Shown here: positions 41,367 through 57,763 of the stretch, one piece after another
How positions within the stretch are numbered: the first letter of the stretch is position 1
How the letters are laid out: each line of letters starts with the position of its first letter
NCBI GenBank assembly: GCA_024277025.1
Contig: JAJRWA010000229.1
Span: forward strand, 1-62,224
Origin: Candidatus Krumholzibacteriota bacterium
Lineage (GTDB): Bacteria; Krumholzibacteriota; Krumholzibacteriia; LZORAL124-64-63
DNA: 62,224 nt
Reading direction: 5' to 3'
Notes under the pieces: generated by a model
Told to the model about the DNA's origin: nothing
Databases searched by the model: none
The model's input: only the letters and a program-made list of their open reading frames with translations
Position numbers and translations under genes: made by a program

Positions 41367-42167
41367 ATGGATCTGGGGATCAAAGGCAAGTCGGCGCTGA
41401 TAACGGCGGCATCACGGGGTTTTGGGCTGGCTACGGCCAGACAACTGGCCCGGGAGGGCGTCCGCGTTTCCCTCTGCGCGCGGGGGCAGACCGACCTGGA
41501 GCAGGCTGCGACCGAGGTGCAGGCCGCCGGCCGCGAGGTTTGGGGCGAGGCGGCCGCCCCGGTCACGACGGCGGCCGTGGATGTGACCGACGCCCAGGCG
41601 GTGGCTGATTTCGTGGCGCAAACCGGCCCGGTTGACCTGCTGCTGGTCAACGCCGGCGGCCCGCCGGCGGGCGGTTTCACGGAATTGGCGGAACAGCAAT
41701 GGCGGGACGCCTACACCCTGACCATCGAGAGCGCCGTGCGTCTGTGCCGGCTGGTCGTGCCCGGCATGGCCGAGCGGGGCTGGGGGCGGGTGGTGATGAT
41801 CACCTCGGTCAGTGTCAAGCAACCCGTCGATAACTTGCTGTTGTCCAGCGTGTTGCGGCCAGCGGTGCAGGGGCTGGTGCGCAGCCTGGCGGTCCAGTAC
41901 GCGGCCTCCGGCGTGACCGTCAATGCCGTGGCGCCGGGTTTTCACACCACCAGCGCGGTCGAGCGCCTGATCGCCAAGAAAATCGAGCAGACCGGCTGCA
42001 CTGTCCAGGATGTGCTGGACGGCTGGACGGCGGAGATCCCCATGGGCCGTCTGGGGCGACCCGAGGAACTGGCGGCCGTGGTCACATTCCTCATGTCCGA
42101 GGGTGCGGGGTACCTGACGGGCCAGGGCATCGTATCGGACGGGGGGTGGGTCAAGGGCACATTCTAG
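41367..42167 (+). CDS. Atypical short-chain dehydrogenase/reductase lacking the catalytic Tyr
   Basis: 266 residues from the ATG at 41367. The open frame runs 85 codons further upstream, but that part has no SDR similarity. The Rossmann motif is ITAASRGFGLATARQLAREG, and NAGGPPAGGF matches the NNAG position. The Ser of the active site is in MITSVSVKQPVDNLLLSSVL, where the usual YxxxK is replaced by Leu/Ser and Arg (LLLSSVLRPAV). This variant recurs in an SDR subgroup of unknown substrate. It may bind NAD(P) but reduce poorly or use another acid. It stands alone. Confidence 0.8.
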   Translation: MDLGIKGKSALITAASRGFGLATARQLAREGVRVSLCARGQTDLEQAATEVQAAGREVWGEAAAPVTTAAVDVTDAQAVADFVAQTGPVDLLLVNAGGPPAGGFTELAEQQWRDAYTLTIESAVRLCRLVVPGMAERGWGRVVMITSVSVKQPVDNLLLSSVLRPAVQGLVRSLAVQYAASGVTVNAVAPGFHTTSAVERLIAKKIEQTGCTVQDVLDGWTAEIPMGRLGRPEELAAVVTFLMSEGAGYLTGQGIVSDGGWVKGTF

Positions 42168-42284
42168 CGGCTGGCCTTGACGGTGCGTATCGGCCGATTA
42201 TCTTGGACCCCTGGCGGAGTCAAGAGGTTGCGCATATATCTATACCCAACCTGAACCCGGCTCTGTGCCAAAGGAATGGTCAAA

Positions 42285-42440
42285 ATGGAAAAGTTCATCA
42301 TCTTCATTGTCATCTACTTTCTGGTGGTGAACTTCGTCTTTCCGCGCCTGGGTCTGAAGCCCGGCTGAGGCCCCACCGACTGCTCGATCGGTGATCGAGG
42401 CGACAGTTTGAAGTCTGACAAGAAGAAGGCCGGCCAGTAG
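42285..42440 (+). CDS. Candidate selenoprotein: tiny membrane protein with in-frame TGA
   Basis: AAAGGA precedes an ATG that encodes a 27-residue hydrophobic peptide (MEKFIIFIVIYFLVVNF, then VFPRLGLKPG) and meets TGA at 42366. The same frame continues for 23 codons (GPTDCSIGDRGDSLKSDKKK, then AGQ) to TAG at 42440. That is 20 bases before the fmdB ATG, leaving just room for its ribosome binding site. Read as selenocysteine, the protein has 51 residues: one membrane helix, then Sec28 followed four residues later by Cys33 and a Lys-rich tail. A SECIS-like hairpin begins 11 bases after the TGA. If the TGA is a plain stop, a 27-residue membrane peptide remains. No selenium genes lie in the window. 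Confidence 0.55.
42366..42407 (+). promoter_or_regulatory. Bacterial SECIS-like hairpin following an in-frame TGA
   Basis: CTCGATC (42383-42389) pairs perfectly with GATCGAG (42393-42399) around the loop GGT. ACTG (42379-42382) pairs with CAGT (42404-42407) below a 4-base bulge GCGA. The loop starts 22 bases after the TGA and begins with G. As I recall the bacterial SECIS rule, a hairpin lies roughly 16-37 bases downstream, with a G in the first two loop positions and an upper stem of 4 or more pairs; this fits. SelB would bind it to decode UGA as Sec. Confidence 0.6.
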
Positions 42441-42459: not shown

Positions 42460-42672
42460 ATGCCCCTGTATGAATTCCAGTGCCGCAAATGTGGCCATCA
42501 GTTTGAGGAATTGCTGACCTCGGCCGAAGTCGAAGCGGGCAAGGTCAAGTGCCCCGCCTGCAAGTCCAAGCGCGTCGAACGCGAGTTTTCGGCCTTTGCC
42601 ACGGGTTCCGGCGGTTTTGGCGGTGGTTTGGCCGGCGGTGGCGGCGGTTGCGGCAGCGGCGGCTTCACCTGA
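42460..42672 (+). CDS. FmdB-family zinc-ribbon protein
   Basis: 70 residues. Starts MPLYEFQCRKCGHQFE; four Cys at 8, 11, 31 and 34 (CRKC and CPAC) form the zinc ribbon, typical of the FmdB regulatory-protein family. A Gly-rich tail with one more Cys (GGGGGCGSGGFT) follows. The function of these small proteins is poorly known. AAGGAG precedes the ATG. It directly follows the candidate selenoprotein, so they may be cotranscribed. Confidence 0.88.
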   Translation: MPLYEFQCRKCGHQFEELLTSAEVEAGKVKCPACKSKRVEREFSAFATGSGGFGGGLAGGGGGCGSGGFT

Positions 42673-55613: not shown

Positions 55614-56672
55614 CTAGCAGATACGTGGCAGCTGTTCTCCGACAGGCATGTCAACGACCCGCTCAACGCCCAACGCGGTCCGCAGTGAAACCAGCGCCGG
55701 ATGTTGAGTCACGATCTCGCCGATTCGCACGGCGTCCTTGCCGGCGGGGTGGTCCCGCAGTGCGGCCAGGGCCTGGTCGGCGTGTTCGGCGGGCACCACG
55801 GCCACGAGTTTACCCTCATTGGCCACGTACAGCGGGTCGATCCCCAGAACTTCGCACGCACCCCGGACTGCTGGCCGCACCGGGATCGCCTCGTCGTCCA
55901 GCTTGATCCCCACCTGGGCGGCGCTCGCGAATTCGTTCAGGGTGGTGGCCACGCCGCCACGGGTGGGATCGCGCAGGGCCCGCGTCGCGGGACAGGCCGC
56001 CAGCAACTGGGCGATCAACCCATTCAACGCGGCCGTATCGCTGCGGATCTCGCTGGCAAAACCCAGCTTCTCACGGGTCGTGAGAACCGCCATGCCGTGA
56101 TCAGCCAGCGTACCGGAGACCAGCACGGCGTCGCCGGGCCGGATGTGCCGTGGCGACAGGCTCACGCCGGCCGGGATCACGCCCAGGCCCGAGGTGTTGA
56201 TGAAGATCCGGTCACAACTGCCCTGGTCCACAACCTTGGTGTCGCCCGTGACGATGCGCACGCCGGCGGCCCGGGCGGCAGTTTCCATGGAACACAGGAT
56301 GCGGTGCAGATCGGCCAGGGGCAGACCTTCCTCCAGCACTAGGCCCACACTGAGGGCTTCGACCCGGGCGCCGCTCATGGCCACGTCGTTGACCGTGCCA
56401 TTGACCGCCAGATCGCCGATATCGCCGCCGGGAAAAAAGATCGGGCTGACGACAAAAGTATCGGTCGAAAAGGCGATCCGGCCCGGTGGCAGGTCCAGGA
56501 CGGCCTGGTCTTCGAGCGCAGCCAGCTCCGGGCTGTGAAACCGCGGCAGGATGAGCTTTTCCATCAGGTCCGCGGACAGGCGGCCGCCGGCCCCGTGGGC
56601 CAGTTGTACCGTCTCGTGATCCAGCACGGGCAGCGGACAGCTCAGTCGGGTCGGATCCGGTAACTGGTTCAC
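55614..56672 (-). CDS. hypE: Hydrogenase maturation protein HypE
   Basis: 352 residues from a GTG that overlaps the hypD stop (GTGA). HypE dehydrates the carbamoyl group passed from HypF into cyanide on its C-terminal Cys. The ending PRIC is exactly the modified tail. The AIR-synthase-like body shows [20 protein letters not shown] and [20 protein letters not shown]. Last of the hyp genes in the operon. Confidence 0.95.
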
Positions 56673-57763
56673 GACAAACCCTTTCTGGCGTAACGGTAAT
56701 AGGCGGCGCAAGCCCCTTCACCCGAGACCATGGTGGCGCCGAAGGGGGATGTCGGCGTGCAGTCGGTGCCGAAGACCGGGCATTCATCCGGCTTCTTGAG
56801 TCCCTGCAGGATCTGGCCGCTGAGGCAGACGGCCGGTTCGCAGGGTGAGATGTCCGTCACGGCGAATTTTCGTTCGGCGTCGAACTTGGCCAACTGGTCG
56901 CGGATCAGCAGACCGCTGTCCGGAATGACGCCGATGCCACGCCACTTGCGGTCGCCCACCCGGTAGACTTCAGTCATGACCGCGCGGGCGGCGGGGTTGC
57001 CCTGGCGGCGCACGGCCCGCAGGTAGCGGTTGGCCACACCCGGCTTTCCGCTCTCCAGCAGTTGCACGGTCTTCAGGATGCCGTCCAGAATGTCCACGGG
57101 CTCGAAGCCGGTCGGCACGATGGGAACGCCGAAGTCGGCGGCCAGCGGCTCGTACTCTTCCCAGCCCATCACGGCGCACACATGGCCGGCAGCCAGGAAA
57201 CCCTGCACGCGGTTGGTCGGCGCCGAGAGGATTGCGCGCATGGCCGGTGGGACGAGGACGTGACTGGCGAGCTGGCTGTAGTTGGTCACGCCTTCGTGGG
57301 CCGCCTGCCGGAGGGCCAGGGCATTGCCCGGCGCGGTGGTCTCGAAGCCTACGGCCAGAAAAACCACTTCGCGGTCCGGGTTCTGTCGGGCGAGCTCCAG
57401 CGCGTCGAGCGGCGAGTACACCATACGCACATCGCCGCCGCGGCTCTTGACACCGAACAGGTCTTCGCTGCTGCCGGGCACCCGCAGCATATCCCCGAAC
57501 GAGGTGAAAATGACCTCGGGCCTCGCGGCGATGGCCAGGGCCCGGTCGATCGTCTCCAGCGGTGTGACGCAGACCGGGCAGCCGGGTCCGTGGACCAGGG
57601 TGATCTCCGGCGGCAGCAGCTGGTCCAGCCCGTGCCGCATGATGGCGTGGGTCTGCCCCCCGCAGATCTCCATGATGACCCAGGGGCGGGTGACGGCGGC
57701 GTGGATTTCGTCCAGCAGTCGGCGGGCCAGTTCGGGATCACGGAATTCGGCCAGATGCTTCAC
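56669..57763 (-). CDS. hypD: Hydrogenase maturation protein HypD
   Basis: 364 residues. HypD binds a 4Fe-4S cluster and, with HypC, builds the Fe(CN)2CO unit. The motifs are [36 protein letters not shown] and the C-terminal Cys group [18 protein letters not shown] plus [16 protein letters not shown]. Its start overlaps the end of hypF by four bases, and its stop overlaps hypE. Confidence 0.95.

Follow-up and report, generated by a model that had tools for sequence, protein, structure and literature searches.

A predicted family of very small, single-pass membrane selenoproteins in at least four bacterial phyla

A 51-codon gene in a 62,224-nucleotide stretch of DNA from a Candidatus Krumholzibacteriota bacterium (the whole analysed stretch, here called the window) is predicted to encode a membrane selenoprotein in which an in-frame TGA specifies selenocysteine (Sec). 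Judged from sequence comparison, the gene belongs to a new selenoprotein family of unusual form, tiny, single-pass and with no cysteine form found, that occurs in at least four bacterial phyla. We consider it close to certain that the family is real; this rests on sequence evidence, and no experiment shows Sec incorporation. The selenoprotein interpretation made in the initial annotation of this DNA was supported overall by the checks described below, with Sec coding supported by comparison and the role of the protein inferred.

The gene, its hairpin and the Sec machinery of the genome

The gene lies between a short-chain dehydrogenase-like (SDR) gene and an fmdB-type gene, and the relevant features of the window are as follows.

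41370-42167, forward strand: short-chain dehydrogenase-like gene, upstream, start approximate (tblastn; named from sequence alone)
42270-42275, forward strand: Shine-Dalgarno-like AAAGGA, 9 nt 5' of the ATG (read from sequence)
42285-42440, forward strand: gene for the predicted 51-residue membrane selenoprotein, ATG to TAG (translation; same TGA in homologues)
42288-42335, forward strand: predicted transmembrane helix, codons 2-17 (AlphaFold2 helix; family hydropathy)
42366-42368, forward strand: TGA read as Sec, codon 28 (97 of 97 extracted copies; invariant in alignments A1, A2 and A3)
42379-42407, forward strand: putative bacterial SECIS hairpin (folding; covariation in relatives at the corresponding stem)
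42381-42383, forward strand: Cys33 codon, forming U-x4-C (invariant in A1 and A2)
42460-42672, forward strand: fmdB-type zinc ribbon gene, downstream (TIGR02605, 61 bits)

With TGA translated as Sec, the gene reads MEKFIIFIVIYFLVVNFVFPRLGLKPG-U-GPTDCSIGDRGDSLKSDKKKAGQ-stop, the terminal stop being TAG at 42438-42440. Translation confirmed the in-frame TGA at codon 28, and the ribosome binding site proposed earlier is present 9 nt ahead of the ATG. Elsewhere in this genome TGA is an ordinary stop, as at the end of the downstream fmdB gene. AlphaFold2, applied to the lone sequence, predicted a helix at residues 2-17 (pLDDT 80-89 over the first two ten-residue blocks) and an unstructured tail, with an overall pLDDT of 67.

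Refolding of the region reproduced the hairpin geometry first described: the apical stem pairs CTCGATC (42383-42389) with GATCGAG (42393-42399) around the loop GGT at 42390-42392, which occupies nucleotides 22-24 after the TGA, and the lower stem pairs ACTG (42379-42382) with CAGT (42404-42407). As a single-sequence fold in GC-rich DNA this hairpin is not significant (z = -0.34, with 65 of 200 shuffles folding equally well), and a scan of the window with Rfam at gathering thresholds gave no match, so that the case for a SECIS element must rest on comparison. The initial judgement that the arrangement is hard to explain by chance was sustained by the conservation of TGA and hairpin in homologues but not by the hairpin alone. 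In a rival explanation, translation simply ends at the TGA, giving a membrane peptide of 27 residues, and the hairpin serves as an operon terminator or attenuator; a single-helix peptide of that length is possible and the fold is unexceptional.

The genome (3.8 Mb in 276 contigs) encodes the machinery that Sec insertion would need. The suggested search for sel genes recovered all components: tRNA-Sec (70.6 bits, against a gathering score of 47), selA (436 bits), selB (a match over its cut-off) and selD (364 bits), the last with an in-frame TGA of its own. A weak selD match within the window (55785-56531) was rejected, as it lies inside a hypE-like gene beside a hypD-like one; these hydrogenase maturation genes, named from sequence, occupy 55614-57763 on the reverse strand.

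Distribution and conservation of the family

Searching 58 relatives with the protein returned homologues with one in-frame TGA in the same place. Profile searches extended the family to 63 of the 80 genomes of the window's phylum and, with the A2 profile run over 387 genomes, to 33 of approximately 307 genomes outside the phylum but in the same domain (28 families, counted by hand from the table). When three other phyla were searched, a homologue, again with TGA, was found in 4/4, 6/8 and 19/20 genomes. The gene follows the capacity to make Sec: tRNA-Sec exceeds its cut-off in 72 of the 80 genomes of the window's phylum, and outside it the small gene is present in 32 of 136 tRNA-Sec-positive genomes vs 1 of 171 negative ones (Fisher p = 1e-11; counts read by hand from result tables). 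G342, the lone negative carrier, has a completeness of 86%, and tRNA-Sec is present in its sister genome, G206. This co-occurrence argues against the TGA being a stop.

Some genomes carry several copies (two at L153, three matches in G041), and two copies share one contig, approximately 2.7 kb apart, with a gene of 594 residues between them. A tblastn search of plasmids for the small protein gave chance matches only. The sole return of a contig scan with A1, an Amycolatopsis frame (L098), was spurious; that scan used Cys codons only.

The proteins are mostly only 45-60 residues long and share a Pro/Gly turn, conserved as P[RK]xG, that closes the N-terminal helix. Two main forms can be distinguished, namely 'KPGUGPxxCSIGDR' in the window's family and 'GVPTUMSxxCxxxDR', with a shorter 'GVPTUAVP...' in other phyla. 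Across the 59 rows of A2, P20, Sec28 and Cys33 are invariant; the homologues thus do not end at residue 27, an outcome that would have counted against the annotation, but run on to the Cys. In the 97 extracted copies the Sec site is always TGA, never TAA or TAG, while the terminal stops are mixed (TGA 49, TAG 28, TAA 20), a pattern that counts against an ordinary stop. The proposed tblastn comparison for U or C at position 28 had a divided outcome: Sec28 and the following Cys are conserved, but there is no Sec/Cys pairing, as no homologue in the phylum, wider or three-phylum genome searches has Cys at the Sec position. Cys homologues are common for selenoprotein genes but not obligatory, and serve as screening support rather than as a defining property. 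The sole non-TGA copy (L163:3090-3197) has Arg at the Sec site and stops soon after; it is probably a decayed gene, though its genome has tRNA-Sec.

The evidence that protein is made past the TGA is uneven. A Cys lies exactly at +5 from Sec in 69 of 97 copies, which counts against termination at the TGA, and between +4 and +20 in nearly all others; four copies have none within 30 residues. The U-x4-C spacing pointed out in the initial annotation is the commonest one but not universal. No copy has fewer than 14 open codons after the TGA, which is weak evidence by itself given that 67% of shuffles also reach 14. The codons of the conserved 'SIGDR' stretch form the SECIS stem itself, and the conservation of this stretch is partly at the RNA level rather than that of protein alone. 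In most copies the tail beyond 'GDR' is not conserved, a variability that would also suit a peptide ending at the TGA. Evidence for protein beyond this codon consequently rests on the Cys at +5, the open frame and a set of gene fusions. In five genera of one phylum (L150/L172, L156/L171, L173, L174, L175), the frame continues across the TGA into a full thioredoxin domain (Pfam PF00085 and TIGR01068), an arrangement unexpected of a stop codon, although an internal start could in some fusions yield thioredoxin without the TGA being read. An apparent fusion at L131, where a long frame overlaps fmdB, is probably not genuine.

Comparison also supplied what the single fold lacked. A simple rule was used, which looked 13-30 nt after the TGA for a stem scoring at least 5 pairs and a loop with G in its first two positions. 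By this rule a hairpin, its G-containing loop 17-30 nt after the TGA, is found in 88% of the 59 in-phylum copies and in 92% of the 37 distinct copies from elsewhere; dinucleotide shuffles give 8-10%, and a control region lying further downstream gives 15-16%. Among the copies recovered later (L169-L195, in part the same as those of the first set), 22 of 27 have it; L185 and L188-L190 show no clear hairpin by this rule. In alignment A5, comprising 29 sequences in one register, all seven of the seven stem pairs are changed on both sides somewhere in the set, with 60 double-changed cells and 93.6% of cells paired, and the signal collapses when the register is slid by one column. The covariation value of 0.726 compares with 0.229 in shuffles and was reached by 0 of 500 shuffles. 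The A5 sequences were selected for pairing in that register, so the percentage paired is favoured by the selection but the double changes are not. A loop containing G at SECIS distance, with covariation, is hard to reconcile with a terminator or attenuator, and we regard the reading of the TGA as a stop as scarcely credible.

Neighbouring genes and the inferred role

The neighbours of the small gene differ among phyla. Within the window's phylum, 58 of 59 loci have fmdB on the downstream side; the FmdB of the window has Cys only, with no in-frame TGA. An SDR gene is upstream in 26 of the 59 (the window's own family), and an ArsR-type regulator is near the gene in 18 of the 59, in other families, and in 7 of 38 loci elsewhere. 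No direct thioredoxin tie was found in this phylum, the neighbours there being fmdB and either SDR or ArsR. Elsewhere the gene orders include ArsR - FmdB - U - TrxC (L127, U denoting the small gene), CMD - Trx - U (L130) and an ArsR - Trx - TlpA-like - U operon (L144, L146), and in the phylum of the last type a WCxPC thioredoxin motif is near 19 of 19 copies. Throughout one phylum (L177-L195), two WCxPC motifs stand at conserved distances of approximately 0.48 and 1.0 kb upstream, a pair that agrees with the operon of L144 and L146. A YgaP-like transmembrane gene adjoins the small gene in five loci, preceding it in L134, L157 and L161 of other phyla. In one genome of the window's phylum (L082, 1908-2109 and downstream), the small selenoprotein gene is followed by one for an AhpD/CMD-like protein whose CRYU (CxxU) motif contains an in-frame TGA, likely a second selenoprotein.

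In most copies the Sec lies approximately 7 residues beyond the helix. In 60 of 97 copies positive charge is stronger behind the helix than ahead of it (the reverse in 23), and the thioredoxins found in the fusions belong to the cytoplasmic TrxA/TrxC type. Together these two observations place the C-terminal tail in the cytoplasm, a topology that is only a weak inference. The mechanism we propose is that the single N-terminal helix would anchor the protein in the membrane, that SelB would insert Sec at the TGA, guided by the hairpin immediately downstream, and that Sec and Cys would form a selenenylsulfide pair at the cytoplasmic membrane surface. The Sec may exchange electrons with a cytoplasmic thioredoxin, so that the U-x4-C selenol/thiol pair, once reduced, would act on a disulfide, persulfide or metalloid substrate close to the membrane, reactive sulfur being favoured. 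The FmdB zinc ribbon may be a partner, and the operons are inferred to be controlled by ArsR-type regulators and to respond to thiol, reactive-sulfur or metal(loid) stress. Like the thiol/selenol site at the membrane that had been suggested at the outset, this role is inferred.

Two other roles for a genuine selenoprotein deserve consideration. The Sec, with the Cys, might bind a metal or metalloid at the membrane for ArsR-controlled trafficking or efflux, with no redox function. The ArsR-type regulators near the gene, the YgaP-like genes and a zinc ribbon protein as the main partner would all suit such a role, but thioredoxin fusions and genes in several phyla point instead to redox exchange, and no recurrent metal transporter was found among the neighbours examined. 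The closest PDB entries to a representative ArsR protein are NolR, HlyU and BigR, then SmtB, SqrR-type and YgaV. Among these, HlyU, BigR, SqrR and YgaV are sensors of redox state or reactive sulfur, and the regulator resembles HlyU, BigR and SqrR at least as well as it does metal sensors. We consider metal binding unlikely on this balance. An equally doubtful proposal is that the protein belongs to a larger membrane enzyme as a small subunit, regulatory or structural, and that thioredoxin serves only as its reductant; the tiny size, the invariant Pro/Gly after the helix and the upstream SDR in the window's own family are compatible with it, but no one enzyme is constant as a neighbour across phyla.

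A thioredoxin-linked redox role at the membrane, as inferred from these data, is the function that we favour by a modest degree. We are confident that the selenoprotein family together with this inferred role is the best explanation of the observations as a whole. A broader proposal, that the family is an obligate-Sec micro-selenoprotein of many phyla forming the membrane end of a thioredoxin relay in reactive-sulfur or thiol stress, a counterpart in form of the eukaryotic SELENOK and SELENOS, remains speculative, with the odds somewhat against it.

Relation to known selenoproteins and implications

No model in Pfam or NCBIfam 20.0 (June 2026, including the named selenoprotein families) matches the helix-Sec module, and in the fusions the thioredoxin parts alone match convincingly. 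The family is also not recognisable in the 119-family prokaryotic selenoprotein table of a 2026 review (PMC13188914); the families of Haft and Tolstoy 2025 were covered only through that table and NCBIfam 20.0. The statement in the initial annotation that no named family has this form agrees with both results, on which we base the designation as a new selenoprotein family. TrxA and TrxC (TIGR01068, NF008229) are fused or adjacent partners in other phyla, but the helix-Sec module itself is not a thioredoxin domain.

SELENOK and SELENOS of eukaryotes are small proteins that cross the membrane once and carry their Sec in a charged tail on the cytosolic side. The resemblance is of form only, with no sequence similarity claimed, and the present family differs in its in-frame bacterial SECIS and in a Sec that adjoins the helix. 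The FmdB family (TIGR02605, UxxU; GOS metagenome study) is listed with Sec forms (PMC2398784, PMC13188914), and FmdB adjoins the small gene here; the Sec, however, lies in the upstream small membrane protein while FmdB itself is Cys-only, and no similarity between the two was found in Pfam or NCBIfam. Hypothetical protein DG (NF049953, GUxG) and other deep-Sep families are likewise predicted selenoproteins without known domains (PMC12013277, PMC13188914). NF049953 matched no family member tested, and the deep-Sep families have Cys homologues whereas none was found for the small membrane family. The deep-Sep method may miss selenoproteins without Cys homologues (PMC12013277), a stated blind spot that this family fits.

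Screens for selenoproteins depend mainly on Sec/Cys pairs and easily overlook very small genes; a family that is always Sec in the genomes searched and mostly 45-60 residues long would have evaded them. That such a widespread family could be overlooked suggests that bacterial selenoproteomes are under-counted. The family would bring a selenol to the surface of the membrane, where thioredoxin is its likely partner, and would provide a small, directly testable system for why Sec rather than Cys is needed.
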